41,503 bases of DNA from an uncultured bacterium. Its GTDB lineage: Bacteria > Verrucomicrobiota > Kiritimatiellia > RFP12 > UBA3636. The stretch spans positions 1 through 41,503 of the forward strand of contig CACWKU010000024.1 in NCBI GenBank assembly GCA_902761575.1, written 5' to 3'. Each line of letters begins with the position of its first letter. Position 1 is the first letter of the stretch. Below the pieces are notes generated by a model, which worked only from the letters and a program-made list of their open reading frames with translations, ran no database searches and was not told the origin of the DNA. The position numbers and the translations under genes are program-made. Of the stretch, positions 6,438 to 36,612 are shown piece by piece.

Positions 6438-6457
6438 TCGGAGGAGGGGATGGCGGG

Positions 6458-7143: not shown

Positions 7144-7173
7144 GTCTAACATTCGCCGCCGTGCCGCGCGCGT

Positions 7174-7202: not shown

Positions 7203-7238
7203 GCGCCGCCGTTTCCGCAATCCAATTCGCACCGAGCC

Positions 7239-10814: not shown

Positions 10815-10891
10815 ATTCCACCGTGCGTGATTTTCAGATGATTGTCCGCTCTGGAAGTGAAGACATTGCTGAAAATCACGCACGGTGAAAT
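10815..10891. mobile_element. Miniature inverted-repeat element (MITE-like) of the 1.4-kb element family
   Basis: Two 23-bp arms, 10815-10837 and 10869-10891, are complementary at 22 of 23 positions. They share CCACCGTGCGTGATTTTC with the ends of the large elements at 27815-29210 and 35050-36539. The 31-base interior codes for nothing. It looks like a non-autonomous, internally deleted relative that would be mobilised in trans if the family is mobile. Confidence 0.75.
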
Positions 10892-14558: not shown

Positions 14559-14582
14559 CTCCGGGAACCGGACGGAAGGCCC

Positions 14583-16691: not shown

Positions 16692-16777
16692 TGCCGGATT
16701 CCTTGTTGCTGGTGCGCGCGTCGCGCGCGGGGTTTCGGGTTGTTTTCGAAAGGGTGGTTGCGTGAAAAACGCGCGGG

Positions 16778-16807
16778 ATTCTAGCACAGGGGACGCCCCT
16801 CGTTCAA
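16778..16807 (-). promoter_or_regulatory. Promoter of fusA
   Basis: Minus strand TTGAAC (16807-16802), an 18-bp spacer and TAGAAT (16783-16778), leaving a leader of about 80 bases. Confidence 0.65.
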
Positions 16808-16819
16808 GCCTTTTTCCGC

Positions 16820-16848
16820 TTGACACGCCGCACCCCCTCTGCTATCCT
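16820..16848 (+). promoter_or_regulatory. Promoter of tRNA-Pro
   Basis: A consensus TTGACA (16820-16825), a 17-bp spacer and TATCCT (16843-16848), 26 bp before the tRNA. It is divergent from the fusA promoter. Confidence 0.7.
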
Positions 16849-16874
16849 CCCGCGCCGTTGCCACGCAACCCCAT

Positions 16875-16951
16875 CGGAGTGTAGCGCAGACTGGTAGCGC
16901 GTTTGGTTCGGGACCAAAAGGTCAAGAGTTCAAATCTCTTCACTCCGACCA
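16875..16951 (+). tRNA. tRNA-Pro, anticodon CGG
   Basis: A 77-base cloverleaf with acceptor stem CGGAGTG/CACTCCG, D-arm GCGCAGACTGGTAGCGC, anticodon stem TTTGG/CCAAA with loop TTCGGGA (anticodon CGG), T-arm AGAGTTCAAATCTCT, discriminator A, and an encoded CCA. The layout matches bacterial tRNA-Pro closely. Recombinase genes follow immediately, as at many tRNA integration hot spots. Confidence 0.95.
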
Positions 16952-16957
16952 CTTGAG

Positions 16958-16986
16958 GCCCCCGCGGACCCACGGTCCGCGGGGGC
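16958..16986 (+). terminator. Terminator after tRNA-Pro
   Basis: A perfect 13-bp stem GCCCCCGCGGACC, loop CAC, followed by TTCCCTTTCCC, starts 7 bp after the tRNA. Confidence 0.8.
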
Positions 16987-17241
16987 TTCCCTTTCCCTCC
17001 TTCGCCGCGTCGCCTTTCGCCCTTCCTCGGGCCCATCCTCGACCGGCGCGCGCTCTTCGACGCGCTCAACGCCCTCGCGCTCCTGGACGAGGCGCACAGC
17101 GACACGTCCCTCACGGAGCTGGCGCTCGCGTGGAGGCGCGACGCGGCGAAGACCGCCTGCCGTCCGGCGCTTTCCCTGCGCGAGTTCTTCGACCGCTTCC
17201 TCGCCCGCTACCGAGAGGAGCAGACGGCCACGCGCAGCCAC

Positions 17242-18018
17242 ATGCGCTGGATGGTCCGCGCGATGTGCCGCGCGCTCGGTCCGGCGATGCCGGTCGCGGC
17301 ACTCCGCCGGGAGGACGTCCTGGGCGCGCTCGAGCCGTTCCGGTCGGCCCGCTCGTGGAACGGCCTTCTCGCGGACGTTGTCACGGCCATCCGCTGGGGC
17401 AACCGCGAGGGTCTCTGCGACCTGCCGTTCGTCGCGACGCTCAAGGCCCGCCCCGTGGAGTTCCGCGAGCCCTCCTGGTTCCCGCCAGACAAGGTCGAGC
17501 GCATTCTCCGGATGGCCGAGGCCCACCCCGGCGACCACCGCGCCGCGGCCGGGATGCGCCTCTCGCTCGGCTTCTTCGCCGGCGTCCGCTCGGTCGAGGC
17601 CGAGCGCGCCTCGTGGGAGGACCTGGACCTCGACGGCGCCGTCCTGCGCATCCCGCGCCCCAAGGGATACACGAACGGCATGAAGCCCCGGATCGTCGAG
17701 CTGGAGCGCAACGCCGTCGCCTGGCTGCGCCGGTGGCGGCGCTGGACGCAGGGCCGGCGCCGCGGCCGCGCGCCGCACGGCCCCGTCGTCCCCCGTCCGC
17801 CCCTCTTCTCGGAATGGAAGAAGGCGTGGCTCGCGCCGGCCGGCCTCTCGTGGGGCCGCGACGAGGACGCGAACGTGATGCGCCACACCTACGCCACCAT
17901 GACCGCCCTCAACCTCGGCCACGGGCATTCCACCGCAATGCTCGAACGGCACTACCGCGGACTCGTGGCGAAGGACGTCGCCGAGCGCTACTGGACGATC
18001 TATCCGAAGGAGGGATGA
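17242..18018 (+). CDS. Tyrosine recombinase 1, probably lacking its native N-terminus
   Basis: A phage-integrase-type tyrosine recombinase, clearly paralogous to the next gene. Catalytic residues are visible: Arg in FFAGVRSVEAER, Lys in PRPKGYTNG, the RH pair in NVMRHTYATM (Asn at the usual first His of HxxR), LGHGH, and the nucleophile Tyr in LERHYRG. The first usable in-frame start is the ATG at 17242, but similarity to the paralogue continues upstream in the same frame to about 17020 (RRALFDALNALALLDEAHSD). No ATG, GTG or TTG exists there before the stop codon in the tRNA. Thus about 70 residues of the core-binding region, plus the original start, were lost or have no start codon. It may be a pseudogene. 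Confidence 0.8.
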   Translation: MRWMVRAMCRALGPAMPVAALRREDVLGALEPFRSARSWNGLLADVVTAIRWGNREGLCDLPFVATLKARPVEFREPSWFPPDKVERILRMAEAHPGDHRAAAGMRLSLGFFAGVRSVEAERASWEDLDLDGAVLRIPRPKGYTNGMKPRIVELERNAVAWLRRWRRWTQGRRRGRAPHGPVVPRPPLFSEWKKAWLAPAGLSWGRDEDANVMRHTYATMTALNLGHGHSTAMLERHYRGLVAKDVAERYWTIYPKEG

Positions 18019-18133
18019 GTCGGGGCGGCGGGCTGTCGCCTCGCCGCCCCGCCGATGTGCCTGGAGAGCGGCCTGCGGCCGCGATATCGTTCCACGCGAG
18101 AATCCGAGAACCCGACACCCCGGGAATCCGTCA

Positions 18134-19264
18134 ATGAAAAGAATACCATCCTTCCGCAAATCCATCGTCAAAGTCGATGCCCTGCTCGCGAAATACGCGA
18201 GCAGCGCCTCGCTTCTGGACGCCCTCCATGCGATGGCGATCCTCGATGACGCCGAGGCTCCCACCCTGACCGAGCTGGTTCTCTCCCATCTCCGCTCTGC
18301 GCGCGGCCATGCCCGCGTCCGTCCGCCGCTCGCGCTGGGCGAGCTTTTCGACCTTCGCGTGGCGCGCTACGCTCCGTCGCAGACCCGGAGCATCTCGGCC
18401 CTGCAATGCGCTCGGCGCTTTCTCTGCTCCCGCCTGGGCGAGGACCGCGCCGTCGAGACGATCTCCGAGGAGGAGATCGCCCGCGCGCTCGACGGGTTCG
18501 ACGATCCGCAATCATGGAACTCCGTTTTCCGGCGGCTACGCCTCGCCTTCAACTGGGCCGTCCAGGCGGGGCTCGTCGAGCGCAGCCCGCTCGGACGCCT
18601 CGCCCCGCGCCGGATCGACTGGCGGGAGCCCGCCCATTTCCTACCCGACCGCGTCGAGCGCATCTTCCGAGCGGCCGAGGCCCATCCCGGACCGCTCGCC
18701 GGCGCCGTCGGGATGCAGCTCGCGCTCGGATTCTTCGCCGGCGTCCGCACCGCCGAGATCGCGCGCGCCCGCTGGGAGGACATCGACCTCGACGGCGCCC
18801 TGCTGCGCGTCCCGCGTCCGAAGGGCTTCACGAGCGGCCACAAGCCCCGTCTCGTCGAGCTGGAGCCCTGCGCCGTCGCCTGGATGCTCCGCTGGCGCGA
18901 CTGGCTCGTCGCCGCCGGCGGTCGCGCCGTCGGCCCCGTCGTCCTCAACCCCCGCCGCTTCGCGCTCTGGAAGGCCCGACGGCTCGCCCCCGCCGGCGAC
19001 TCCTGGGGCAACGACGCCGCCCATAACGTCATGCGCCACACCTACGCCACGATGCACGTCGCCGCCTTCCGCGACGCCGCCGCCACCGCGCTCAACCTCG
19101 GCCACGCCGGCGGGACCGAGCTGCTCGAGAGGCACTACCGGGGCGTCGTTCCGAAGGCCGTCGCCGACGCCTACTGGCGCATCCTCCCCTCCGCCGCGCC
19201 CCTCCCTCCGCCCGAGCCCCTCCCCGGCCGCGGCTTCCGCTCCGATCTGAAACGCCCGCTCTAG
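18134..19264 (+). CDS. Tyrosine recombinase 2
   Basis: A 376-residue, apparently intact tyrosine recombinase starting MKRIPSFRKSI. Residues about 1-180 form the SAM-like DNA-binding region (QTRSISALQCARRFL). The catalytic domain has Arg in FFAGVRTAEIAR, Lys in PRPKGFTSG, RH in NVMRHTYATM, LGHAGG and the nucleophile Tyr in LERHYRGVV. As in its neighbour, Asn replaces the first His of HxxRH. It lies 115 bp after the first copy in the same orientation; the pair looks like a tandem duplication. Its position between tRNA-Pro and the cassette block, with near-palindromic sites just behind it (19360-19419), suggests site-specific recombination there. Whether it integrates an island, resolves dimers or moves cassettes cannot be read from the sequence. 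Confidence 0.9.
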   Translation: MKRIPSFRKSIVKVDALLAKYASSASLLDALHAMAILDDAEAPTLTELVLSHLRSARGHARVRPPLALGELFDLRVARYAPSQTRSISALQCARRFLCSRLGEDRAVETISEEEIARALDGFDDPQSWNSVFRRLRLAFNWAVQAGLVERSPLGRLAPRRIDWREPAHFLPDRVERIFRAAEAHPGPLAGAVGMQLALGFFAGVRTAEIARARWEDIDLDGALLRVPRPKGFTSGHKPRLVELEPCAVAWMLRWRDWLVAAGGRAVGPVVLNPRRFALWKARRLAPAGDSWGNDAAHNVMRHTYATMHVAAFRDAAATALNLGHAGGTELLERHYRGVVPKAVADAYWRILPSAAPLPPPEPLPGRGFRSDLKRPL

Positions 19265-19670
19265 CACGCGACCGAAATGATTTGTCCGTCGCGCTTTTTT
19301 CCGCGGCGGAACCGCATGCACCTTGTTTTGCGGGGGCTCTGCACGGGTGCAAGGATGTTTACCATTCCGGAGTCATATCCGGTTTGGTAATTACCATTCC
19401 GGAGTACTATCCGGAATTTTCTTGACACCGCGGTCCGTTTTCCGCCCGCGTCGACTGCTTCGCCGAACGCTCTCCCGTCTCCGTTCCCGCCCTCACCTTC
19501 CTATCGCAGCTGCTCTAGTACGTTTCGGCGACATCCGCCCGAGGCGCGCGTTAGCCCCATTTGAAGCGCGTCTGGCCCGGCACAGGGTTCGAAAGGCCCC
19601 GCGGGCGGGCGCGCTCCCGCCGGCCCGCGGCGGGCATGGCGGCGCGGCTTTGCCGCGCAATGACTCCTTT
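19265..19670. other. Intergenic region between recombinase 2 and the first cassette
   Basis: No gene is supported over 406 bp. It holds two direct copies of a near-palindromic site (19360-19419), an isolated TTGACA (19422-19427) without a matching -10 box, and a 58-bp dispersed repeat that runs into the first cassette (19629-19686). Confidence 0.6.
19360..19419. promoter_or_regulatory. Tandem near-palindromic sites behind recombinase 2
   Basis: TACCATTCCGGAGTCATATC and TACCATTCCGGAGTACTATC start 32 bp apart (19360 and 19392). The second copy is a perfect inverted repeat, ATTCCGGA and TCCGGAAT around the 6-bp spacer GTACTA (19396-19417). The first has the left arm ATTCCGGA, spacer GTCATA and a shorter right arm. 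GGTAATTACC, itself a palindrome, joins them. Paired arms around a 6-bp spacer fit a tyrosine-recombinase core site; two operators for a dimeric regulator fit equally well. Confidence 0.55.
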
Positions 19671-19686
19671 GCGCCCGCGTGGGGCG
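19629..19686 (+). repeat. 58-bp dispersed repeat upstream of cassette 1
   Basis: It matches 22494-22551 (opposite strand) at 52 of 58 positions. It includes the 7-bp-stem hairpin GCGCGGC TTT GCCGCGC (19642-19658) and runs into the first bases of the 41-bp box. Confidence 0.7.
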
Positions 19687-20411
19687 CTGAAGTCGTCTCA
19701 TCGAACATCGTCGGGTACGAGAAGGTCGCCGTCAACAAAGGGTGGACCATGATCGGAGTGCAATTCAACCAGGTCGGTGGGGAGCCACTCGATTTGGGAA
19801 CCGTTGGCGTCCTGGATTCTAGTATGGATGGTTTCGACGCGGAAGGCTCGTTCCCCAACGAGATGCGTGTTTTCGACGGAACCGACTACACTTACTACGG
19901 ATGGTCCGGCTCGAGCGGAACTGACTTGCTTGACAACGCGGATCTCGACAACCAGTGGATTGACACCACCGAACTAGCACCCGTCGATGAAGAGATGAAG
20001 CCGGCTCAGGGTTTCTGGATCAAATCGGAAACCGGCGGCACCATTACCCTCTCCGGTGAGGTTCCCACGGCCGACACGATTCAGGCGGATGTCGGCATTG
20101 GCTGGAACATGATTGCCAATCCCTATCCGGGCGCTGTTCTTGTTGAAAACTTCGGGACACTTGACTCTACATTCGCGGGTTTTGACGCAGAAGGCAACTT
20201 CCCGAACGAGATGCGCGTCTGGGACGGTGAGAACTACGCCTACTACGGTTGGTCGGGCAATAGCGGTTCTTCTCTTCTCGAAAATCCCGACATTGACAAT
20301 AAGTGGATTGACACCACGGAACTTGCCGTCACCGATGACAAGATTGAGTTCGGCAAAGCTGTCTGGATCAAGGCCTCCAGCTCCGGCAAAATCACTTTTT
20401 CCAAACCCTAA
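19671..20411 (+). CDS. Cassette 1 surface-type two-repeat protein (SNIVGY family), start unresolved
   Basis: The supported protein begins APAWGAEVVSSNIVGYEKV and consists of two related repeats of about 115 residues. Each has a GW.MI hydrophobic start, GFDAEG.FPNEMRV(F/W)DG, YYGWSG.SG, (D/N)(N/K)WIDTTEL, a (F/W)WIK segment and a beta-rich end. It looks like a secreted beta-rich protein; I do not know its function. The frame is open upstream to a TTG at 19323, but that stretch is Arg/Pro-rich and repeat-derived. No signal peptide or credible start codon is joined to the body; the only nearby ATG (19660) is in another frame. GC content is clearly lower than in the backbone genes. It ends 15 bp before its PEP-CTERM partner. 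It may be a silent cassette or a decapitated gene. Confidence 0.7.
   Translation, partial: APAWGAEVVSSNIVGYEKVAVNKGWTMIGVQFNQVGGEPLDLGTVGVLDSSMDGFDAEGSFPNEMRVFDGTDYTYYGWSGSSGTDLLDNADLDNQWIDTTELAPVDEEMKPAQGFWIKSETGGTITLSGEVPTADTIQADVGIGWNMIANPYPGAVLVENFGTLDSTFAGFDAEGNFPNEMRVWDGENYAYYGWSGNSGSSLLENPDIDNKWIDTTELAVTDDKIEFGKAVWIKASSSGKITFSKP
19674..19714 (+). repeat. 41-bp cassette box, copy 1
   Basis: CCCGCGTGGGGCGC followed by GAAGTCGTC and CGAACATCGT. It is shared with 22383-22423, 24763-24803 and 25143-25183 with 2, 1 and 5 mismatches, and encodes PAWGAEVVSSNIVG in all four. Confidence 0.85.
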
Positions 20412-20426
20412 CCAGGAACCCAACCC

Positions 20427-21002
20427 ATGAAGAAACTACTCGGACTGGCTGTTTGCCTTGGCCTTGTCGCCTCGGCTTCCGCCGCCACCCTCAACTGGGG
20501 CGCTGCGACCATCAAGTTTGACAGCACCTCGCTCAAGAACAGCGAAGCCGTCAATGGCTACTTGATTTACCTCGGCGGAGCAGGAACGGCATTTTCCGCG
20601 TCCTACGACATCTCCTCCGATTCGGTCAGTACCATTGTTTCCTCAATCGGAACGCAGGTCGCCACGGCCAACAAGCCAAATGCTCTCGGAACGTTCAACA
20701 TCAAGTCGACTTTCGACACGTCGAAATACGGCAATGGTGACGTCTTTGGAATGCTGCTGACCTACACAAACGAGGGGAAGACGTATTACAACCTCTCAAC
20801 AGCGACCATCGGCATGACTGGTCTTGTTGAAGAGCCACCAACCGACCCCGACAAAATGACGTTCTCTTTCTCGTACGCATCAGGCGATGACGCGAAGACC
20901 GTCTCTGCTGGCGGTGGTTGGCATGCTGCCGTTCCCGAGCCCTCGACCGCCATGCTCGCGCTGGCCGGTCTCGCGCTCCTGATCAAGCGCCGCCGCGCCT
21001 AA
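20427..21002 (+). CDS. Cassette 1 PEP-CTERM-type secreted protein
   Basis: A 191-residue protein with a clear signal peptide (MKKLLGLAVCLGLVASASA, cleaved after about residue 19), a low-complexity beta-type mature part beginning TLNWGAATIKFD, and a C-terminal sorting tail: VPEPSTA, a hydrophobic helix ALAGLALLI and KRRRA. In the PEP-CTERM/exosortase system such tails direct proteins to the envelope and are cut and transferred. The signal, box and basic end are all intact. AGGAA precedes the ATG. It is 15 bp downstream of the cassette 1 surface gene, presumably on one transcript, and followed by a terminator shared with cassette 2. Confidence 0.88.
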   Translation: MKKLLGLAVCLGLVASASAATLNWGAATIKFDSTSLKNSEAVNGYLIYLGGAGTAFSASYDISSDSVSTIVSSIGTQVATANKPNALGTFNIKSTFDTSKYGNGDVFGMLLTYTNEGKTYYNLSTATIGMTGLVEEPPTDPDKMTFSFSYASGDDAKTVSAGGGWHAAVPEPSTAMLALAGLALLIKRRRA

Positions 21003-21024
21003 TCGGGCATCAACCACAAACAAG

Positions 21025-21054
21025 AACGCCCGTCGGGAAATCCCGGCGGGCGTT
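21025..21054. terminator. Bidirectional terminator between cassettes 1 and 2
   Basis: An inverted repeat AACGCCCGTCGGGA/TCCCGGCGGGCGTT with one internal mismatch and a 2-base loop. TTTTCTTGTTG follows on the right and CAAGAA lies on the left, serving both converging PEP-CTERM genes. Confidence 0.85.
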
Positions 21055-21079
21055 TTCTTGTTGTTGTGGACTGCTCCGC

Positions 21080-21655
21080 TTACGCCTTGCGACGCTTCAG
21101 GAGCAGCGCGAGACCCGCGAGGGCGAGAGCCGCCGTGGAAGGCTCAGGAACGGCGACCCAACCGCCACCAGCCTTGAGCTTTCCGGTTTCGCCACCCGTA
21201 GAATACGAGAAGGTGTAGTTTGCCTTGTCGGGATTCGTGGGTGGGTCGGCAACGCCGTTTGCCATCGTGTAGACGGCGGTCGAAAGATTGTACCAATCCT
21301 TCGATCCGTCATTGTAATGGAGGAGCATGCCAAACACGTCTCCGTTGTCGTACTTCGTTCCCATCTCGAACTGGTAGTCGCCATTGAGCTTCGCAACGGC
21401 GGATGTCTTGTTCTTGGTATCGACTTGCGCACCGATGGAAGACACAATCGAGGACACCGTCGATTCCGTCGTGATCGAATACTCCGAGGCATAGGACCCG
21501 GATTCGAGGAAGATCAGATAGCCGGTAACGGCGGTGCTGTTTTTCAATGTAGCACCATCAAACGCGACTTGCGTCGCATTCCAGTTGAGTGTGACGGCCG
21601 ATGCGACTGAGGTTGCCAGTGCGCAGGTGAGGGCAAGGATTGTTTTCATGTTCAT
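21080..21655 (-). CDS. Cassette 2 PEP-CTERM-type secreted protein
   Basis: A 191-residue homologue of the cassette 1 partner. The signal peptide is MKTILALTCALATSVASA (from the second Met), the mature part begins VTLNWNATQVAFDG, and the tail is VPEPSTAAL with ALAGLALLL and KRRKA. The mature domain aligns with the cassette 1 protein over its whole length (TLNW..., NSTAVTGYLI, YNLSTAVYTM against YNLSTATIGM). The ATG at 21655 or the one at 21649 could be used; both give the same signal peptide. It follows the cassette 2 surface gene by 27 bp. A role as a surface partner is inferred from the pairing. Confidence 0.87.
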   Translation of the reverse strand: MNMKTILALTCALATSVASAVTLNWNATQVAFDGATLKNSTAVTGYLIFLESGSYASEYSITTESTVSSIVSSIGAQVDTKNKTSAVAKLNGDYQFEMGTKYDNGDVFGMLLHYNDGSKDWYNLSTAVYTMANGVADPPTNPDKANYTFSYSTGGETGKLKAGGGWVAVPEPSTAALALAGLALLLKRRKA

Positions 21656-21682
21656 GTTTCTTGGTTGCTTTGTGGGGGCCGC

Positions 21683-22423
21683 TTATTGGGCGGGGTTGGT
21701 GAAAGTGATGGTTCCTGCGGCATCGGTTTTGATCCAAACACCATGCCCGAAGAGCACCGTTCCGTCGGATTCCTCAAGGTCGCCGTTGAGCCACTTGTTA
21801 TCAAGATCGGAGTTGTCCAAAACATCCGTTCCGGAAGTCCCAGACCAACCATACATGTCGTATCCAAGACCATTCCAGACTTGAAGTTCGACTGCAAAGT
21901 TGCCATCTGCGTCGAACCCGGGAAATCCCGAAGAGAGAACACCGAAATCCGTCACATTGATTTGTCCGGGATAAGGGTTTGCGACCATGTTCCATCCCGT
22001 CCGCAGGTTGACCGTAATGGTATCCTCTGACGGAACTTGGCCCGCAATGGTCGCCGTTCCGGCCGAACCCGCCTTTACCCAGACGCCTTCCGCCTTGTCA
22101 AGGACATCGTCGGTGAGTTCAAGATCGCCATTGAGCCACTTGTTGTCGAGGTCGGAGTTGTCGAGAACATCCGTTCCCGAAGTGCCAGACCAACCGAACA
22201 TGTCGTAGCCGAGACCATTCCAGACTTGGAGTTCCGTCGCGAAATTGCCGTCGGCATCAAAGCCAGCCATTTCGGGGTTCAGCGCCGCGAAGGTCGAAAG
22301 ATCCATCGCTTCGCCTTGCCCTACCTGGACAAACTGAATACCGAGCATATTCCAGCCGGCATTCAATGTGATCTTCTCATAGCCCACAATGTTCGATGAG
22401 ACGACTTCAGCGCCCCACGCGGG
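21683..22423 (-). CDS. Cassette 2 surface-type two-repeat protein (SNIVGY family), start unresolved
   Basis: The body runs from PAWGAEVVSSNIVGYEKITL at the box to AGTITFTNPAQ. The two repeats share GFDADGNFA.ELQVWNGLGYDM(F/Y)GWSGTSGTD and VLDNSDLDNKWLNGDLE almost word for word, so they arose by recent duplication or are kept alike by gene conversion. The only in-frame start is a GTG at 22387, inside the SNIVGY motif, which would remove the conserved beginning. Upstream sequence is repeat-derived Gly/Arg-rich (GGLGGGRL) with no signal peptide. It has the same domain plan as cassette 1 and the same order relative to its PEP-CTERM partner. Confidence 0.7.
   Translation of the reverse strand, partial: PAWGAEVVSSNIVGYEKITLNAGWNMLGIQFVQVGQGEAMDLSTFAALNPEMAGFDADGNFATELQVWNGLGYDMFGWSGTSGTDVLDNSDLDNKWLNGDLELTDDVLDKAEGVWVKAGSAGTATIAGQVPSEDTITVNLRTGWNMVANPYPGQINVTDFGVLSSGFPGFDADGNFAVELQVWNGLGYDMYGWSGTSGTDVLDNSDLDNKWLNGDLEESDGTVLFGHGVWIKTDAAGTITFTNPAQ
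22383..22423 (-). repeat. 41-bp cassette box, copy 2
   Basis: It matches copy 1 at 39 of 41 positions. A truncated extra copy of its left part lies at about 22494-22512 within the 58-bp repeat, with no gene attached. Confidence 0.85.
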
Positions 22424-22493
22424 CGCAAGGCGCCCGCCACCAAGCCCGCCGCGGCCCGGCGCGGAGCGCGGCCGCGGGGGACTTCCCTATTGA

Positions 22494-22551
22494 CGCCCCA
22501 TGCGGGCGCAATGGAGTCATTACGCGGCAGAGCCGCGCCACCAAGCCCGCC
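22494..22551 (-). repeat. 58-bp dispersed repeat between cassette 2 and higBA
   Basis: The reverse complement matches 19629-19686 at 52 of 58 positions. It contains the hairpin CGCGGC AGA GCCGCG (22523-22537) and the first part of a cassette box without the rest of a cassette. Confidence 0.7.
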
Positions 22552-22570
22552 GTGGGCTTCCATTTTCCAC

Positions 22571-22599
22571 TTGACTCCCGATAAGCATTCGCTTATTAT
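22571..22599 (+). promoter_or_regulatory. Promoter and operator of the higBA-like module
   Basis: TTGACT (22571-22576), a 17-bp spacer and TATTAT (22594-22599). The perfect palindrome ATAAGC ATTC GCTTAT (22581-22596) fills the spacer and touches the -10 box, the expected place for autorepression by the HTH antitoxin. Confidence 0.75.
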
Positions 22600-22624
22600 C
22601 GATGGCGTTACGGAACCACATGAC

Positions 22625-22948
22625 ATGCCGGGCAAGACCATCCTTGAAACTCCACAGGCGAGGGCGTTCGTCGATACGATGGATGCGCTTTCCCGCAAGA
22701 AATACGCGGCCTTGCTCGCATTGCTTGCGGAACATGGCTTCCTGTCCGCGCCCGCCGCCGAGAAAGTGGCCGGCGAAGCGAACCTCTTTGCGTTGCGAAT
22801 TCTGACGCGAAACAACTACCGCTACTTCTACTGCTATGACGATGGCACGACCATCTTCATCCTTTCCGGATATTCGAAACGGACGGAACAGATTCCCAGG
22901 CGAGAGATCGACAAGGCGAACAACATCAAGAAGGAGCTCGGACTATGA
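22625..22948 (+). CDS. higB: RelE/HigB-type toxin
   Basis: A 107-residue protein of the phage-derived Gp49-like/HigB type, a ribosome-dependent mRNA interferase. It shows the family pattern LALLAEHGFLSAPAAEKV ... NLFALRILTRNNYRYFYCYDD ... TIFILSGYSKRTEQIPRREI, with the core strand basic residues and a C-terminal helix. The ATG at 22625 is the first start after the promoter; the longer frame to 22490 crosses the promoter and a repeat. The toxin precedes its antitoxin, the order typical of higBA, and overlaps it by 4 bp. Confidence 0.85.
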   Translation: MPGKTILETPQARAFVDTMDALSRKKYAALLALLAEHGFLSAPAAEKVAGEANLFALRILTRNNYRYFYCYDDGTTIFILSGYSKRTEQIPRREIDKANNIKKELGL

Positions 22949-23250
22949 CCAAGGAACAGTATGCAAAAATGAAGGCGGACACGGATGCGCATCTGGCGAA
23001 GATCCGTGCGGAGCCCGGCTACGAGGAAGTGCTGGCCGAAGTTCGTTCGGAAGTCGAGTCGGCGACTCTTCTTGCGACGATCATCGAAAAGTCGAATCTC
23101 CCCCAACGGGAGATCGCACGGCGGATGAACGTATCGCAGCCCTATGTAGCCCAGCTCAAGAAGGGACGCAAGATCACCCTTCCGACGCTCTTCCGTCTGG
23201 CGGATGCATGTGGAATTCATCTCCGCATCTCCGCTGCAGCGGCGCTGTAG
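22945..23250 (+). CDS. higA: HigA-type XRE-family antitoxin
   Basis: A 101-residue protein with a helix-turn-helix of the Xre/Cro type (about residues 52-98: SNLPQREIARRMNVSQPYVAQLKKGRK). The N-terminal helical segment probably contacts the toxin. It starts in the ATGA overlap with the toxin gene. It would neutralise the toxin and repress the promoter through the palindrome at 22581-22596. The module is less GC-rich than the chromosome, like the cassettes around it, and may stabilise the array by addiction. Confidence 0.88.
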   Translation: MTKEQYAKMKADTDAHLAKIRAEPGYEEVLAEVRSEVESATLLATIIEKSNLPQREIARRMNVSQPYVAQLKKGRKITLPTLFRLADACGIHLRISAAAAL

Positions 23251-23384
23251 CGGCGAGAATACGCCAAAACGAAAGTCAGGCGGCTTCCCGCCTGTTCGCG
23301 GCCTTGCATGGCGAAGAGGACCCGCCACGCCGGCGGCGGCCGTAGGACTGCCATGCCCGAAAACGAAAGCCCGCCGGGCCGGTC

Positions 23385-23431
23385 GTCTTGCGTCTGGCGT
23401 CTCGCCAGACCCGAGGCGCCAGACGCCAGAC
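23385..23431 (-). repeat. 47-nt palindrome behind cassette 3
   Basis: Arms of 15 bases (GTCTTGCGTCTGGCG and CGCCAGACGCCAGAC), complementary at 14 of 15, surround 17 bases. It is nearly identical in arms and middle to 26549-26595 behind cassette 4. Confidence 0.75.
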
Positions 23432-23439
23432 GAAAACAA

Positions 23440-23467
23440 AAGACCGCCGGGTTTCCCCGGCGGTCTT
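23440..23467 (-). terminator. Terminator of cassette 3
   Basis: A 12-bp perfect stem AAGACCGCCGGG/CCCGGCGGTCTT with a 4-base loop, and TTTTGTTTTC downstream on the minus strand. The same stem ends cassette 4. Confidence 0.85.
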
Positions 23468-23488
23468 CCGTTTGTTGGGGTTGGTCCC

Positions 23489-24094
23489 TTACGCGCGGCG
23501 GCGCTTCAGGAGCATGCCCAGGCCAAGCAGGCCCATAAGGGCAACCGAGGGCTCGGGGACGGCCGGCGCAGCCGTCCAGTTCGAGGCGCGAACCGTGGCC
23601 GCATTCCAAGTCATGGCGCTCGTCGGTGGAAGGGGATCACCCGTAGTCTCATATCCCTTCGCCTGTCCGGATACGGTTTTGTAGTACCAGGAAGTTTTTT
23701 CCGAGCTGTCCGTCAGACTTGTGACGATTACAGCGAAGAAATCGTTGAGAGAGGAACTAGAGATCTCGGGCCTCTCAACGGGGGTAGTTCCGGCAGCCTT
23801 GCCACCAGTTTTGCACTTCGCATCTTCGAGAAACGTCGCCCCGGTGACGGCGCTTGACGAGAAACCAGACGCCCCGAAGGCACCGGAGATGGTTTCGTCC
23901 GTAGCCGTTCCGAGGAAGAAGTAGATGGTCGCAGCATCATTTGCGATGTTGCTTGTGCCGGTAGTGATTGTTCCGTCTTCTCCGACGGTAAAACTCTTGA
24001 TGCCTCCACTTCCGAGTGACCAGAGAATGGCAGAACCGTAGGCGCTCGAGCAGGCGACCGCCATTGCGATGAACGCAAGAATTGTCTTTTTCAT
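23489..24094 (-). CDS. Cassette 3 PEP-CTERM-type secreted protein
   Basis: A 201-residue protein with signal peptide MKKTILAFIAMAVACSSAYG, a mature region beginning SAILWSLGSGGIKSF that differs from the cassette 1, 2 and 4 partners, and the tail VPEPSVALMGLLGLGMLLKR ending RRA. AAGGAAACG precedes the ATG. It lies 28 bp after the cassette 3 surface gene and is followed by a strong terminator. The sequence divergence of the mature part, with intact sorting signals at both ends, fits interchangeable surface proteins. Confidence 0.86.
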   Translation of the reverse strand: MKKTILAFIAMAVACSSAYGSAILWSLGSGGIKSFTVGEDGTITTGTSNIANDAATIYFFLGTATDETISGAFGASGFSSSAVTGATFLEDAKCKTGGKAAGTTPVERPEISSSSLNDFFAVIVTSLTDSSEKTSWYYKTVSGQAKGYETTGDPLPPTSAMTWNAATVRASNWTAAPAVPEPSVALMGLLGLGMLLKRRRA

Positions 24095-24122
24095 TGTTTT
24101 CGTTTCCTTGTTGGTTGCGATA

Positions 24123-24803
24123 CTATTCGACGGAAATCGAAACAGTATCAGATTCGGACATCAGCCAGAAACCATCGTTGAGTTGAACTTCTTTTTCGGC
24201 GCGAAGTCCGGAAGCTTCGTCTGTCCAACCGGGACCAAGGTCCTCTTCACCCGTCTCGTCATAGGTTTCTTCGGCATATGTGAAGGCGTCGTATGTCGTT
24301 CCGTTGAAGAACTGAATGCGGTCTCCATCGGCAATGTTTTCAAACGTGACGGATTGAAGATCCTTTTTCACGGGAGTCGGAACCGCGACAAGGGCGAACA
24401 CACCTCCGCAGTTCGCAGAGTACGAACCATCTGGTTTGACCTCGCCACCAAATGTCATGGTTGCAGATTCTCCACTCGCGCGAAGCCAGAAGGCCTGACC
24501 GGGAATCAAGGCTCGCTCAGCCCTCAGGCCGGTAACCTCGTCCGTCCAACCAGGACCAAGATCTTCTTCACCCGTCTCGTCATACGTTTCTTCCGCATAC
24601 AGATATGCATCATACGTCACGCCATTGAAGAACTGGATTCGATCACCGTCGGCAACACCTTCCAGAACCAAATCCTGGATATCCAGAGTGTTTGCGCCAA
24701 TAGTGGTGAATTGAACGCCGACAATCTGATTGTTGTCGGGATCAACGCTAAGTTTGTGGTATCCGACGATGTTCGATGAGACGACTTCGGCGCCCCACGC
24801 GGG
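24123..24803 (-). CDS. Cassette 3 surface-type two-repeat protein (SNIVGY family), start unresolved
   Basis: The body begins PAWGAEVVSSNIVGYHKLSV at the box and continues DPDNNQIVGVQF. It has two repeats sharing ADGDRIQFFNG.TYDA and YAEETYDETGEEDLGPGWTD, each ending in a (F/W)WL segment and a beta strand. This differs strongly from the repeats of cassettes 1, 2 and 4, although the first 16 residues are the same. The first in-frame ATG or alternative start lies well inside the body (24671). Upstream, a short ORF beginning TTG at 24868 (MYLIELFASKAKKMLEIEGA) overlaps the box in a different frame. No signal peptide is in frame. Confidence 0.68.
   Translation of the reverse strand, partial: PAWGAEVVSSNIVGYHKLSVDPDNNQIVGVQFTTIGANTLDIQDLVLEGVADGDRIQFFNGVTYDAYLYAEETYDETGEEDLGPGWTDEVTGLRAERALIPGQAFWLRASGESATMTFGGEVKPDGSYSANCGGVFALVAVPTPVKKDLQSVTFENIADGDRIQFFNGTTYDAFTYAEETYDETGEEDLGPGWTDEASGLRAEKEVQLNDGFWLMSESDTVSISVE
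24763..24803 (-). repeat. 41-bp cassette box, copy 3
   Basis: It matches copy 1 at 40 of 41 positions, although the downstream proteins are hardly alike beyond the motif. Confidence 0.85.
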
Positions 24804-25142
24804 CCGTTGGCGCCCTCAATTTCAAGCATTTTCTTCGCCTTGGAAGCAAAAAGTTCGATCAAGTACAACTTATTGTAAAATCAACCGATATCGACATATT
24901 CACCCCCGTTTTGCCACTTCGCCAGATCCGGGGCGTGCAACTTTTTTGAGGCCTGAGGCGGGTCAAGCCCGACTTCGGTCGCCCACCATTCACCAAACGG
25001 CGCGGGCGCTCGCATGCGCACGATGGGCGCTCCCACACGTGTGCGTGTGCGCGTCCCACACAATGTCTCGAACGTTCTGTCCGCCCCCTCGCGCGCCGCC
25101 GTTGCCGAAGCACCCTTCGTTCCCTCCGTTCCGATCTTCCCG
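24804..25142. other. Divergent intergenic region between cassettes 3 and 4
   Basis: No gene is supported. The AT-rich stretch near 24850-24900 holds a palindrome TACAA CTTA TTGTA (24864-24877) and a possible plus-strand promoter. The rest is GC-rich and unlike the sequence in front of the other boxes. Confidence 0.5.
24854..24881 (+). promoter_or_regulatory. Possible promoter toward cassette 4
   Basis: TTCGAT (24854-24859), a 16-bp spacer and TAAAAT (24876-24881). The palindrome TACAA CTTA TTGTA overlaps the -10 box and could be an operator. The leader to the box would be about 255 bases. Confidence 0.35.
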
Positions 25143-25183
25143 CCCGCGTGGGGCGCCGAAGTCGTCAGCTCGAACATCGTGGG
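25143..25183 (+). repeat. 41-bp cassette box, copy 4
   Basis: It matches copy 1 at 36 of 41 positions; three of the five differences are in the SS codons (TCATCG against AGCTCG), which still read Ser-Ser. Confidence 0.8.
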
Positions 25184-25868
25184 ATACCAAAAGGTGACTC
25201 TAGCATCCCAATTCACCCTCATCGGAAGCCAGTTTCTCAATGTGGGAACCGGTGTAAAGGATCTTCAGGAGTTCGTCACGGACAGCACGATGCCGGGGCT
25301 CGACGCGGACAACAACTACGCCTTTCAGACGGAAATTCGTCTTTGGGACGGATACAACTACGACACATACGGATGGGATCCCGATGGCGATCCAAATACT
25401 CCGAACAGCGACCATAAATGGGTTGATGATTACCTGAATGTGATCGAAAACGTCTCGATGGGGGTTGGAACGGCGGCTTGGATCAAGGTCCCCGCATCGA
25501 CGGAGGCAACGCTTACCGTCTCGGGAGAAGTTCCCGAGGGAACGACCACTTCCGTCGCAATCCACAGCGGATTCAACCTCCTCTCCAACCCTTTCCCGGT
25601 TGCCACGGACATCCAGTCCATTCAACCCAGCGCAGAGATTCCCGGCCTCGATGCCGAAAACAATTATGCATTTCAAACCGAAATCCGCGTTTGGGACGGA
25701 TACAACTACGATACATACGGATGGGATCCCGATGGCGATCCAAATGTTCCGAACAGCGACCACAAATGGGTAGACGACTACCTGAACGTGGTTAACGTGA
25801 CCATTCCGATGGGACATGGATTCTGGATCAAGACGACAGAAAACGGATCCGTGACCTTCTCCAAGTAG
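25143..25868 (+). CDS. Cassette 4 surface-type two-repeat protein (SNIVGY family), start unresolved
   Basis: The body begins PAWGAEVVSSNIVGYQKVTL. The two repeats contain GLDA(D/E)NNYAFQTEIR(L/V)WDGYNYDTYGWDPDGDPN and HKWVDDYLNV, nearly identical to each other in DNA as well. Each is followed by a (A/F)WIK segment and a beta-rich end. The frame is open upstream to an ATG at 25014, but that extension (MRTMGAPTRVRVRVPHNVSN) is not a signal peptide and shares nothing with the other cassettes. If 25014 is used the product would be 284 residues and not exported by the usual route. It lies 38 bp before its PEP-CTERM partner. Confidence 0.7.
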   Translation, partial: PAWGAEVVSSNIVGYQKVTLASQFTLIGSQFLNVGTGVKDLQEFVTDSTMPGLDADNNYAFQTEIRLWDGYNYDTYGWDPDGDPNTPNSDHKWVDDYLNVIENVSMGVGTAAWIKVPASTEATLTVSGEVPEGTTTSVAIHSGFNLLSNPFPVATDIQSIQPSAEIPGLDAENNYAFQTEIRVWDGYNYDTYGWDPDGDPNVPNSDHKWVDDYLNVVNVTIPMGHGFWIKTTENGSVTFSK

Positions 25869-25906
25869 AACTTTCCGAAAACAACCACAAACACGAAATC
25901 AAACCC

Positions 25907-26491
25907 ATGAAAACAAAACTGCTTCTTTTGGCGATTTTGCTCTCCGCAACCATCTCTCACGCGGCGAGTTTCAAATGGTCGGCTGCGGCACCCGCCGCAT
26001 TCGATGGAACAAAACTGGAAGGCACGGCGAAGGGATACCTCGTCTACTTGGGAACCTCAACTTCCGCCTCCGATCTCTTCACGATTGATTACACCGCACC
26101 CGGGACAATCACTCCCGCGACCAGTGTGCAGAATGTCACATCGGGAACGGGAAGAGCTGCAGGAGCCATTTCGGCAACCTACAAAGACACAGATACCGGA
26201 GACGATGGACACCATGTTGCCACGGGGGCTCATTTCGGTATGTTCCTGGTTTACAATGACGGAACCGACACTTGGTACAACTTCTCCTCGACTGTCGCCA
26301 CCATCACTACGGATGCGACTGGTGCTTTTGAAGCGAAGTCGTTCGCGTTCGACTATTCGACAAAAACGACGATTGAGTCGGACGGACAAACCCCTTCGGG
26401 CTGGACGAAGATCAACATCGTCCCGGAGCCTTCGACCGCCATTCTCGCGCTGGCCGGTCTCGCGCTCCTGATCAAGCGCCGCCGCGCGTAA
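25907..26491 (+). CDS. Cassette 4 PEP-CTERM-type secreted protein
   Basis: A 194-residue protein with signal peptide MKTKLLLLAILLSATISHA, a mature part beginning ASFKWSAAAPAAFDGTKLEG, related in outline to the cassette 1 and 2 partners (GYLVYLGTS, FGMFLVYNDGTDTWYNFSS), and the tail VPEPSTAIL with ALAGLALLI and KRRRA. The last 60 bases of the gene are nearly identical to the 3' end of the cassette 1 partner even though the mature parts have diverged. It is followed by the same terminator as cassette 3. Confidence 0.88.
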   Translation: MKTKLLLLAILLSATISHAASFKWSAAAPAAFDGTKLEGTAKGYLVYLGTSTSASDLFTIDYTAPGTITPATSVQNVTSGTGRAAGAISATYKDTDTGDDGHHVATGAHFGMFLVYNDGTDTWYNFSSTVATITTDATGAFEAKSFAFDYSTKTTIESDGQTPSGWTKINIVPEPSTAILALAGLALLIKRRRA

Positions 26492-26512
26492 GGGGCCAAC
26501 TCCAACAAACGG

Positions 26513-26540
26513 AAGACCGCCGGGGCGACCCGGCGGTCTT
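26513..26540 (+). terminator. Terminator of cassette 4
   Basis: A 12-bp perfect stem AAGACCGCCGGG/CCCGGCGGTCTT, loop GCGA, then TTCCTTTTC. It has the same stem as the cassette 3 terminator. Confidence 0.85.
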
Positions 26541-26548
26541 TCCTTTTC

Positions 26549-26595
26549 GTCTGGCGTCTGGCGCCTCGGGTCTGGCGAGACGCCAGACGCCAGAC
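26549..26595 (+). repeat. 47-nt palindrome behind cassette 4
   Basis: Perfect 15-base arms GTCTGGCGTCTGGCG and CGCCAGACGCCAGAC around 17 bases. The same element follows cassette 3 (23385-23431, minus). Confidence 0.8.
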
Positions 26596-26711
26596 ATCGA
26601 CCCAACCGACTTCACCGACTCCACCGACGAAATCGGGTTTTCCCCTCCCTTCCCGAAGGATCGCGGGGGAGACTCGACTTTGTCGGTTGGGTCGATCGGG
26701 TCGGTGGAGTC
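26596..26711. repeat. Two interleaved inverted repeats
   Basis: ATCGACCCAACCGAC (26596-26610) pairs perfectly with 26682-26696, and GACTCCACCGAC (26617-26628) with 26700-26711. The order A-B-A'-B' means both stems cannot nest; the transcript could only form them as a pseudoknot or as alternatives. Confidence 0.65.
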
Positions 26712-26792
26712 GATTGGCCGCGGTGGGGGGAAAGCATCCCCCAAAAATACGGCCGGACATCGACTCCACCGCGAAACGACATCCTCCCCGCG

Positions 26793-27794
26793 CTACGCCA
26801 TCGTCGCGAGCATCTCCGGCGTCACGCGGGCCGGGGAGGGGCGGCCGTCTCGCCAGTCGCGGAAGGCGGCGAGCATCGCCTCGCCCATCCGGCGCACCTC
26901 GCCGCCGGAGCTGCCGGCGAAGTGCGGCGTGAGCAGGACGTTCGGCAGCGCGCGCAGGGGCGAGTCCGCCGCGGGCGGCTCGGGGAAGGTGACGTCGAGG
27001 ACCGCCGTGCGCCCCGGCTCCTCCCGCAGCGCGCGGGCGAGGTCCTCCTCGACGACCTGCGCCCCGCGGCCGGTGTTGAGGAAGGTGGCGTTCGGCGGCA
27101 TCCGCGAGAAGAGCGCGTAGCCGAGCAGCCCTCGCGTGGCGGGGTTGTCCGCGAGGTGGTTGGAGACGGTCTGGCACGTCGCGAAGATCTCCTCCAGCCC
27201 CGTCTTGCGGACGCCGAGCGCCGCTGCGCGGGCGTCGTCGAGGAACGGGTCGTAGCCGAGAACCTCGACGCGGTGCGCCCGCAGGGCGCGCGCGACGAGC
27301 GAGCCGATGCGGCCGCCCGCGCCGAGCAGCCCGACGCGGGCGCCGAGGTTGCCCGGATACGCCGCCGCGGCGCGGCGCTCGGCCTCGGACGCGGCCGGGC
27401 CCTTCGGCCCGTGCCGGAAGCGGAAGAAGCCCTTGTTCGCGAGCAGGATCTGCGCGACGGCGACCTCGGCGACGGGCACCGCGTTCTCGCCCCACGCGCT
27501 GAAGACGGCCACGCCGCGCGCGAGCAGCGGCCGCGCGAACGCCTGCACGCTGCCCGCCGCGTAGAACACGGCGCACAGGCGCGGGAGCGCGTCGGCGAGC
27601 TCCTCCTCCGAGAGCGCGGGCATCCCCCAGGTGGCGAAGAGCGCCTCGCAGTCCTCCGCCGCCCCGGCTCGCAGCTCCTCTACGGAGATCGGCTCGGGAT
27701 CGAGCCCCGCCTCCTCCCGCAGCGCATCGACGAGATCGGGCGGATACACCCGCCCTATCGCCTCGCCCCCGACCATTCGCGCTTTCCCCTTCAT
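26793..27794 (-). CDS. D-isomer-specific 2-hydroxyacid dehydrogenase
   Basis: A 333-residue NAD(P)-dependent dehydrogenase of the phosphoglycerate-dehydrogenase/glycerate-dehydrogenase type. The Rossmann motif is LLGAGGRIGSLVARALRAH with YDPF after it. The catalytic region follows with NHLADNPATRGLLGYALFSR, FLNTGRGAQVVEEDL, the Glu-containing DVTFPEPP and the active-site His in LTPHFAG. I chose the ATG at 27794 (MKGKARMVGGEAIGRVYPP), with AAAGGTGG upstream. An in-frame extension to 27839 would start inside the terminal repeat of the neighbouring element (MKITHGGIEG). Substrate is unknown. It is probably read through from the element upstream or from a promoter within it. Confidence 0.88.
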   Translation of the reverse strand: MKGKARMVGGEAIGRVYPPDLVDALREEAGLDPEPISVEELRAGAAEDCEALFATWGMPALSEEELADALPRLCAVFYAAGSVQAFARPLLARGVAVFSAWGENAVPVAEVAVAQILLANKGFFRFRHGPKGPAASEAERRAAAAYPGNLGARVGLLGAGGRIGSLVARALRAHRVEVLGYDPFLDDARAAALGVRKTGLEEIFATCQTVSNHLADNPATRGLLGYALFSRMPPNATFLNTGRGAQVVEEDLARALREEPGRTAVLDVTFPEPPAADSPLRALPNVLLTPHFAGSSGGEVRRMGEAMLAAFRDWRDGRPSPARVTPEMLATMA

Positions 27795-27899
27795 CCTCCC
27801 CCACCTTTCTCCTTCAATTCCACCGTGCGTGATTTTCATTGTTTTCTCTTCTCCCGTTCTGTCGATTTCTTCGTTTTGTCGGCCATTTTCCGTTCTTCC

Positions 27900-29051
27900 C
27901 TATGCCAGCCGTCGCCTTCGCCCGCGCTCGCGTTTCTCCCGTTCGTCCCGCTCCGCGCGCAATCGTCGCATGAACCCCGCCACGGTCGCGCTTTCCGGCG
28001 CGGCGAGCAGCGCTCGCAGTCGCTTGCGCGCGCCGGGCAGCCGTTCACGCAACGTCGGTCGCACCTTCCTCTCGACTTCCGGATCGGCCGCGAGCAGCAG
28101 CTCCGCCGGAACGGGATCGAAGAGGTCCTCCGAATCGCGCGCCTCCCACGCAAGCCTGCGGTAGCCCGTGAGCGCCGCGTAGTGCGGGAGCAGTTCCGGG
28201 CAGTTCTCGAAGATCCAGCCGCGCAGGCCGCCGTTGCGCCCGACGATTTCGCCGTCGCTGTCACGGATGAGCGAACTGTCCGTCGTCGCCTCCGCGTCGA
28301 GCAGCATCGACCCGAGCCGGATCTTCTCCTCCACCTTCCCGCGTCCGCGCGCCTTCTCGAACTGCTCGCGCACCTCGTCGCCCGTCGGCGCGGGCTTGGC
28401 GGAGAAGACGCAGAGCCGGCGGATCGGAGCGCCCTTGCGGCGGGGACGGTCCGGCAAGTTCGGCATCCCGGGTTCGCGTGGCGGGGTGCCGGACCCCGCC
28501 ACGGCCTTCTCCAGCGTCCCGAACCAGTCCTGCCACGCCAGGTTCCGCTTCGCACGAGCCTTGGCGCGGAGGGCCGCGGAGCAGGGCCGGCGCGAAAGAG
28601 CAAGCGCCTCGCGCTCGCGGGCGGCCTCGCGGCGGACCCGCTCCGCGGCGAGGGCGCGCAGGACGCGAAGGTACTCGATGCGGCCGGAGTCTCGCGCGTC
28701 GCGGAGGCGCTGCGCGCATTCGCGGGCGAAGGCGCGGTCGACGCCCGCCCGGGCGCGGTAGGCGCAGAGACGGACTGATCGGAAGAGGGAGGCGGCGCTC
28801 TTCGAGAGCAAGGGCAGAATGGTCGTCTCGAGCGCACCGGGCGTGTCGTCGGGGGAGTCGATGAAGAAGACGAAGAGGGGGATGACGCCGGGAATCGCGA
28901 TTCCCATGGAGTCGAAGCCCGAAGTCGCCCAGCGGTATTCCTCCCACGCGTGGCGACGGAGGGCGGCGTTGATGCGCGCCTCCTCGCGGCGGCGGTCGGC
29001 GCGGCGAAGGGCGGCGGCGGAGATGGTTCGGCGGCGGGGGCGGCGGGACAT
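27900..29051 (-). CDS. Unknown 383-residue protein of the repeated element, copy 1
   Basis: I do not recognise this protein. Visible features are a very basic N-terminus (MSRRPRRRTISAAALRRADR), a hydrophobic stretch GIAIPGVIPLFVFFI (about residues 50-64) followed by DSPDDTPGALETTILPLL, a long Arg/Ala/Glu helical region (about 95-165), a conserved WQDWFGTLEKAVAGSGTPPR patch, GWIFENCPELLPHYAALTG (about 283-301) and a basic tail. It differs from copy 2 at 19 of 383 residues with no frameshift or stop, so it appears to be under selection. The start is the ATG at 29051; longer frames run through the promoter. A DNA-binding role is plausible from the charge, but that is inference. Confidence 0.75.
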   Translation of the reverse strand: MSRRPRRRTISAAALRRADRRREEARINAALRRHAWEEYRWATSGFDSMGIAIPGVIPLFVFFIDSPDDTPGALETTILPLLSKSAASLFRSVRLCAYRARAGVDRAFARECAQRLRDARDSGRIEYLRVLRALAAERVRREAAREREALALSRRPCSAALRAKARAKRNLAWQDWFGTLEKAVAGSGTPPREPGMPNLPDRPRRKGAPIRRLCVFSAKPAPTGDEVREQFEKARGRGKVEEKIRLGSMLLDAEATTDSSLIRDSDGEIVGRNGGLRGWIFENCPELLPHYAALTGYRRLAWEARDSEDLFDPVPAELLLAADPEVERKVRPTLRERLPGARKRLRALLAAPESATVAGFMRRLRAERDEREKRERGRRRRLA

Positions 29052-29157
29052 GGCGGAAGGGGAATGGAGGACGGAAGGACGGGAGCGGCGTTGTTCGATC
29101 GAGAGTCGGGCGAAAACGGCAGAACGTGAACCGCCGCAGTGGTGGAGAACGCACGCG

Positions 29158-29186
29158 ATTCTACACCGCAGGAGCGGCGAAAGCAA
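29158..29186 (-). promoter_or_regulatory. Promoter inside element copy 1
   Basis: Minus strand TTGCTT (29186-29181), a 17-bp spacer and TAGAAT (29163-29158). The -35 box directly abuts the terminal repeat, so the element carries its own promoter. Confidence 0.65.
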
Positions 29187-29352
29187 GGAAAATCACGCAC
29201 GGTGGAATTGAATGGTTTTGAAGCGGTTTGGTTGGTGAAATGGCGGGCCGGTCAGCCGTTGAGAAGGGGGTGGCGGCGGATGGGGAGGCCGCGACGCAGG
29301 CGGAGGGCGTGCCAGGCGCTCGGGATGTCGCTTCGCACCGCCTGGCGGAGGG

Positions 29353-35074: not shown

Positions 35075-35179
35075 TGTTTCATCTTCTCCAGCATTGCCGT
35101 TTTCATCAATATTTTCCCTCTGTTTGATCTCCGGGCTTCTTGTCTTTCCCTGCCTCGTCCGGCCTCAATCCCCAGCCGC

Positions 35180-36331: not shown

Positions 36332-36486
36332 GGCGGGTGTACAGTTGGATGTGGAAAGGAAGGAGTCGGATGCGATAGGGAAGCAGAGGCGGATGCGGGG
36401 CGGATAAACGATGGAAACCGGAGGATGGAGTCCGCGGTGGCCGGAAGATGGACGATGGGGCCGCGGATGGGGCGGAAGATGGCGCG

Positions 36487-36515
36487 ATTCTACACCGCAG
36501 GAGCAGCGAAAGCAA
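36487..36515 (-). promoter_or_regulatory. Promoter inside element copy 2
   Basis: Minus strand TTGCTT (36515-36510), a 17-bp spacer and TAGAAT (36492-36487). Same position relative to the terminal repeat as in copy 1. Confidence 0.65.
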
Positions 36516-36612
36516 GAAAAATCACGCACGGTGGAATTGGATGGATGTCGCGTGCGATTTGCGTTGACGGGGACTAGACCGTCGACAGGGACGGTGCCGC
36601 CCGACGAAGTTT

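Follow-up and report, generated by a model that had tools for sequence, protein, structure and literature searches.

The window analysed here is a 41,503-nt stretch of DNA from an uncultured gut bacterium of the Kiritimatiellia (assembly GCA_902761575.1, contig CACWKU010000024.1, positions 1 to 41,503 of the forward strand). It holds four cassettes, each made up of a partner gene and a gene for a PEP-CTERM protein, and, in the same island, two genes for tyrosine recombinases. Two of the cassettes, 3 and 4, end in opposite orientation in the same block, an intrinsic terminator followed by a palindrome, and an earlier note on this DNA had taken that palindrome to be the right border of units that recombine as a whole and a candidate recombination site. 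We find that the palindrome is a copy of a dispersed palindromic repeat that is confined to the genus and lies close behind gene ends, and that the evidence for recombination points instead to a short coding box at the 5' end of the cassettes.

The common 3' end of cassettes 3 and 4

The features of the two cassettes, in the order in which each is read, are as follows.

24123 to 24803, minus strand: partner gene of cassette 3, from the box on; SSNIVGY family, with two internal repeats
23489 to 24094, minus strand: PEP-CTERM gene of cassette 3 (PF07589)
23434 to 23473, minus strand: intrinsic terminator of cassette 3
23383 to 23433, minus strand: palindrome 3' of cassette 3, a copy of the dispersed repeat, with the right flank of the family, GACGACCGGCC
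25143 to 25868, plus strand: partner gene of cassette 4, from the box on
25907 to 26491, plus strand: PEP-CTERM gene of cassette 4 (PF07589)
26507 to 26546, plus strand: intrinsic terminator of cassette 4
26547 to 26599, plus strand: palindrome 3' of cassette 4, a copy of the dispersed repeat, without the right flank of the family

The inverted block of terminator and palindrome behind both PEP-CTERM genes lies where the earlier note had placed it, as does its 47-nt palindrome, although the arms are longer than the 15 bp given there: they measure 20 to 22 nt with one or two mismatches, and 15 bp is the longest unbroken run. In cassette 3 the arms (23383-23404 and 23412-23433) are 22 nt long, 91% complementary and separated by a 7-nt loop; those of cassette 4 (26549-26568 and 26576-26595) are 20 nt long and 95% complementary. 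Palindromes and terminator stems of the two cassettes together form an inverted repeat (177 nt, 84%). With up to two mismatches allowed, the 15-mer arm occurs six times in the window, against 0.54 expected, a count reached in none of 100 shuffles. Both hairpins are predicted to fold strongly (-39.9 and -36.8 kcal/mol; z of -7.4 and -5.8).

Between cassettes 3 and 4, identity is 61% for the PEP-CTERM genes (71% over the last 100 nt) and 89% for the 57 nt after the stop codon, which comprise spacer and terminator; the palindromes reach 96%, and the next 60 nt fall to 53%. These segment-by-segment identities define a common block of about 120 bp that runs from about the stop codon to a sharp edge at the outer palindrome arm. 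Because the DNA after the stop codon is more alike than the genes before it, the 3' end appears to have been copied or exchanged between cassettes 3 and 4 after the genes had diverged. The right flank GACGACCGGCC is present at 23383-23433 and at copies on C128, G008:C10, G002:C536 and G002:C356 (contigs are numbered with C, comparison genomes with G) and is missing at 26547-26599, so that the latter copy looks like a truncated member of the family.

Distribution of the palindrome

Copies of the palindrome were sought in the metagenome-assembled genome (MAG) to which the window belongs (3.4 Mb, 304 contigs) and in 40 related genomes, 11 of them members of the genus and 29 from other genera; public records describe these relatives as Kiritimatiellae/Verrucomicrobiota MAGs, with goat abomasum and roe deer rumen among the sources. 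The first search of the own MAG found two copies on C24, the contig of the window, and others on C19, C58, C59, C142 and C128. A covariance model built from six own-MAG copies recovered these together with a second one on C128, eight in total, with a gap to chance (E of 9e-7, 2e-4 for its reverse-strand reading, then 0.7). Strong copies occur in 7 of the 11 genus members, while the 29 genomes of other genera gave no convincing copy (best E 0.008). An Rfam scan of 19000-28000 returned no credible family, and we found no described family that matches the dispersed palindrome.

Across the genus, the 28 aligned copies consistently lie on the sense strand close behind the end of a gene, in many cases 5 nt past the stop codon, and most follow the stop codons of unrelated genes. 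A majority group has CACGCGGAGTCCGCGGAGGGCGCGGAGTGAGTTTT directly upstream; where the upstream gene can be called, the TGA within CACGCGGAGTCCGCGGAGGGCGCGGAGTGAGTTTT is its stop, its tail reads HAESAE and the palindrome follows about 5 nt further on. The smaller group, which includes the window copies, lies mostly downstream of a strong intrinsic terminator (fold z of -3.6 to -7.8 for six copies). Palindrome lengths rise in steps of about 7 nt (46, 53, 60 and 67), the size of the unit GTCTGGC, and all copies fold strongly (-24 to -46 kcal/mol). The alignment contained no covariation supporting a selected RNA structure, with the proviso that the 7-nt units blur the alignment; for lack of covariation, a hairpin under structural selection was rejected. 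Two pairs of copies occupy equivalent positions in different genomes (C58 and G008:C47; C19 and G006:C274), which shows that palindrome copies are inherited. At the spacer of C58, G006:C175 has the same flanking genes, with the palindrome replaced by another dispersed repeat. At several loci (L037, L038, L039, L080 and others), gene tails encoding HAESAESAE, composed of a CACGCGGAGTCCGCGGAG repeat, run into the palindrome; this repeat has apparently spread into the 3' ends of genes throughout the genus.

Cassettes or recombinases are found on the same contig for only 3 of the 28 copies, and six of the eight in the own MAG lie away from cassettes. When the PEP-CTERM cassettes of the genus are considered in turn, all nine readable 3' ends have a terminator of the same type, and the palindrome is found at two of them, those of cassettes 3 and 4. 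The only other array contig with a palindrome is G002:C356, where it lies on the 5' side of the cassette, between recombinases and cassette. The palindromes are largely scattered without a link to cassettes, the outcome that the earlier note had named as one that would refute its reading. The palindrome does not mark cassette ends in general and is unlikely to be a recombination site.

The 5' box

Each cassette of the window begins with a 45-nt box, which we consider a candidate recombination site, and the box of cassette 3 adjoins a fragment of upstream sequence also found in a relative.

19674 to 19718, plus strand: 5' box of cassette 1, PAWGAEVVSSNIVGY
22379 to 22423, minus strand: 5' box of cassette 2
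24759 to 24803, minus strand: 5' box of cassette 3
25143 to 25187, plus strand: 5' box of cassette 4
24805 to 24858, minus strand: fragment of expression-site upstream sequence, 96% to G010:C176, abutting the box of cassette 3

The box codes for the last residues of a signal peptide with the cleavage site, and for SSNIVGY. Partner genes start with PA[WQGR][GA]A[ED]VVSSNIVGY or with a variant of it, which in G004 is CACAEEVYSSNIVGY, and beyond the box the aligned partner proteins are only about 24-36% identical to the reference. Median box identity is 0.98 within genomes against 0.67 between them, the differences between genomes extending to synonymous sites, with flanks at background. Selection on the peptide would not yield that pattern, which argues for repeated exchange at the box. 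In G010, two box types occur (C176 and C56), so that a genome need not have a single box type. The PEP-CTERM tail was considered as a second homogenised site and rejected, its identity being 0.69 within genomes and 0.72 between them; two cassettes of G007 have an identical 53-nt PEP-CTERM tail in genes that are otherwise unrelated. A relation between the palindrome and the core of the window box, which resemble each other weakly (GCGTCTGGCGC and GCGTGGGGCGC), was dropped, because the box core varies from genome to genome and the palindrome is constant across the genus.

Five box copies have an upstream start codon and a convincing signal peptide, the cleavage position having been read from the sequence by eye rather than taken from a predictor. 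Examples are MKRTLTLLAILAAIGPAWG before the cleavage position and AEVVSSNIVGY after it in G010:C176, and MKSKQLVAMAALALLVALPARA followed by the same AEVVSSNIVGY at the end of G008:C212. Two further CASEAR frames passed no more than a crude script filter. The remaining copies, including all of those in the window, are preceded by unrelated DNA without a convincing signal peptide. For CASEAR, a signal-peptide copy and a silent copy are identical at 77 of 77 positions from the box to the contig end, and their upstream DNA is unrelated.

The assemblies themselves break at the box: eight contig ends fall 0-95 nt behind one. In G004, contigs C386 and C328 overlap exactly over 141 nt, made up of 96 nt of upstream sequence and the box and ending on the last shared base; among the fetched contigs, this upstream sequence was found in these two alone. 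An assembler that broke at this point probably met more than one continuation, and the simplest reading would be that alternative cassettes lie behind one upstream sequence. Where 24805-24858 meets cassette 3, 120 nt holding the leader and signal peptide are missing relative to G010:C176, and the place that cassette 3 occupies looks like an expression site that has been damaged.

The island and its recombinases

The cassettes belong to a larger island, whose remaining features are listed here.

16996 to 26787, no strand: whole island, missing at the corresponding place in the congener G001
16875 to 16951, plus strand: tRNA-Pro(CGG), adjoining the island
17026 to 18018, plus strand: tyrosine recombinase 1, XerC/D-like
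18134 to 19264, plus strand: tyrosine recombinase 2, XerC/D-like
19674 to 21002, plus strand: cassette 1, with the partner gene to 20411 and the PEP-CTERM gene at 20427-21002; without palindrome
21020 to 21059: terminator common to cassettes 1 and 2
21080 to 22423, minus strand: cassette 2, with the partner gene at 21683-22423 and the PEP-CTERM gene at 21080-21655; without palindrome
22424 to 22512, minus strand: GC-rich foldable element upstream of cassette 2, between the box-core copies GCGCCCGCATGGGGCG and GCGCCCGCGTGGGGCG
22490 to 23250, plus strand: toxin-antitoxin pair between cassettes 2 and 3, with a Gp49-like toxin open reading frame (22490-22948, the domain in its second half) and a helix-turn-helix (HTH) antitoxin (22945-23250)

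In G001, a homologue of 14582-16995 (translation factor gene, tRNA-Pro and tRNA terminator; 91% identity) is joined via about 14 bp to a homologue of 26788-27597 (98%). From this junction, 16996-26787 is a 9.8-kb island, or else was deleted in G001, and it contains the two tyrosine recombinases, the four cassettes, the Gp49/HTH toxin-antitoxin pair and both palindromes. The view in the earlier note that the cassettes are recombining units beside two recombinases is supported, with the difference that the evidence favours the 5' box over the palindrome, and that the unit whose presence differs between species is the entire island. Integration into the tRNA itself was considered and rejected, since a search of the window for tRNA 3'-end repeats of at least 12 nt found none except the inverted arm of the tRNA's own terminator.

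Scored with TIGR02249, the recombinases reach 11.8 bits, below the cut-off of 265, and are not IntI. Pairs homologous to them occur elsewhere in the genus, and pair and boxes are found together at six loci: the window, C96 of the own MAG, G010:C56, G002:C356, G008:C212 and G005:C129. Both recombinases of the window (17881-17955 and 19034-19138) read NVMRHTYATM where the histidine of HxxR is expected, an apparent His to Asn change that most relatives share. C96 (G000:C96, L176) has several more recombinase genes or fragments at 2048-7760 beside two cassettes, one of the recombinases being 95% identical to the second one of the window. Elements like that at 22424-22512 are found in G010:C176 and G002:C356 and, doubled, in G008:C212. 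The last contig (L172) begins and ends at a box with a recombinase pair between; its positions 1-300 contain two tandem copies of a GC-rich element, about 92 bp long with the box core at its end, like the remnant of an empty cassette.

Elsewhere in the window, inverted copies of CCACCGTGCGTGATTTT stand on both sides of each of two paralogous regions with similar genes (27820-29205 and 35055-36534; minus-strand open reading frames at 27900-29186 and about 34985-36249). At 10818-10885, the motif also occurs as a short inverted pair by itself. The bracketed regions look like a mobile gene unit, and the short pair like a derivative of it.

Discussion

The reading that we favour, with a probability of about three in four, is that the 3' end of these cassettes is a terminator with a dispersed repeat as its passenger, and that cassettes are exchanged at the 5' box, probably by the linked recombinases. 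Silent cassettes begin at the box and have neither start codon nor signal peptide; through recombination there, one of them would come under a resident promoter and be joined in frame to a resident signal peptide, probably by the action of the linked XerC/D-like pair. The incoming cassette would bring a secreted partner protein, a PEP-CTERM protein and a terminator. The palindrome would have been acquired by a cassette end, as by many other gene ends in the genus, and cassettes 3 and 4 would share their 3' block because one of them received a copy of about 120 bp from the end of the other, rather than because cassettes are cut at the palindrome. Site-specific exchange at the box by these recombinases would then vary the exported proteins. 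We lean, with less assurance, towards the full form of this proposal, a recombinase-driven cassette system in a genus of gut Kiritimatiellae, whose site lies inside the signal-peptide cleavage site and in which any captured silent cassette yields, in frame, an exported protein along with its PEP-CTERM partner.

Several observations weigh against this reading. Of the six cassette boxes in the own MAG, four lie in the window and two on C96, and palindromes at two of six cassettes of one genome exceed random scatter, an excess for which copying of a cassette end accounts. A signal-peptide-bearing, and thus expressed, box copy was not found in the own MAG. The four boxes of the window differ at third codon positions, with a mean identity of 88% in this genome, so that the local system may be decaying. 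Recombinase pairs also lie on contigs with no recognisable box (G001, G003 and G007:C258), and the assembly breaks at boxes may partly stem from repeats. Finally, every genome used is a fragmented MAG, and copy numbers are minimum counts.

The alternative that survives best, albeit an unlikely one, holds that the box is homogenised by RecA-dependent gene conversion among paralogues and that the recombinases merely inserted the island. Silent-copy conversion systems exist in other bacteria; however, conversion usually leaves longer, ragged tracts, whereas here only about 45 nt are identical, with abrupt borders, and boxes repeatedly have recombinase pairs next to them. Slightly less plausible is that the palindrome has a function at gene ends, either as a second terminator or in the protection of mRNA 3' ends, and was selected in cassettes 3 and 4 for that reason. 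Consistent orientation, placement behind genes and the strong folding of all copies would fit such a function, but the palindrome, a GC-rich hairpin, differs from an intrinsic terminator in having no T-run after it, the T-run before it belonging to the preceding terminator. Nor does it covary, most gene ends and cassettes do without it, and at an orthologous spacer another repeat has taken its place. Where present, it could nonetheless have some effect.

We doubt that the palindrome is a repetitive extragenic palindromic (REP) element moved by REP-associated tyrosine (RAYT, Y1) transposases, or a tiny miniature inverted-repeat transposable element of another transposon. Y1_Tnp genes occur in 10 of the 11 genus members, and the palindrome, dispersed as it is, resembles REP sequences and bacterial interspersed mosaic elements in being short, imperfect, multi-copy, intergenic, taxon-restricted and mixed with other spacer repeats. 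It differs from them in its few copies (eight per genome), its constant position just behind gene ends and its arms of a 7-nt unit, with length steps of 7, and it does not flank RAYT genes: none of eight RAYT loci examined carries it, and the one spacer compared offered no clean empty site or target duplication. Four of these loci, from four genomes (L158-L161), have a different motif, AAAGGGGTCTGTCCCCTT, upstream of the RAYT-like gene, which is probably their own REP motif. Equally doubtful is an origin of cassettes 3 and 4 by inverted duplication of a whole cassette with a conserved 3' end; the common block is unbroken from stop codon to palindrome, but a plain duplication would not leave PEP-CTERM genes at 61% identity, near background, beside non-coding post-stop DNA at 89-96%. 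It is very improbable that the two recombinases act on the palindrome and that it forms the right-hand limit of each cassette, even though the homology of cassettes 3 and 4 stops sharply at its outer arm, the recombinases lie within the same island and G002:C356 has its further copy between recombinases and cassette, because 25 of the 28 copies lie on contigs that hold neither cassettes nor recombinases, seven of nine cassette 3' ends lack it, and its sequence is constant in the genus whereas the box differs per genome.

For exchange at the 5' box, the closest precedent is the switching of vsa in Mycoplasma pulmonis and vpma in M. agalactiae (PMC2268961), which likewise involves silent copies in both orientations, a common 5' sequence, a Xer-like tyrosine recombinase adjoining the locus and a unique expression site, found here in relatives rather than in the own genome. 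Unlike those loci, the present system has two recombinases, cassettes of two genes (partner and PEP-CTERM) and a common box at the signal-peptide cleavage site, and its switching is a proposal from sequence. Integrons similarly place a recombinase beside an array of promoterless cassettes, with some GC-rich foldable elements and a toxin-antitoxin pair in the array; here, however, the recombinases are not IntI, no attC is defined, the box is coding and varies between genomes, and cassettes lie in both orientations. Our evidence is confined to sequence analysis, and in a partial coverage of the literature, with most subscription journals and all preprints outside it, we found no paper joining PEP-CTERM genes with recombinase cassettes.

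In conclusion, the palindrome is an ordinary kind of feature and is not to be followed as a recombination site. If the exchange proposed at the 5' box is real, it would constitute a surface-variation device in a little-cultured group, with a site that doubles as a signal-peptide cleavage site. Such a device would help to explain the diversification of PEP-CTERM protein families, and would provide a short, testable recombination target together with its likely enzymes.

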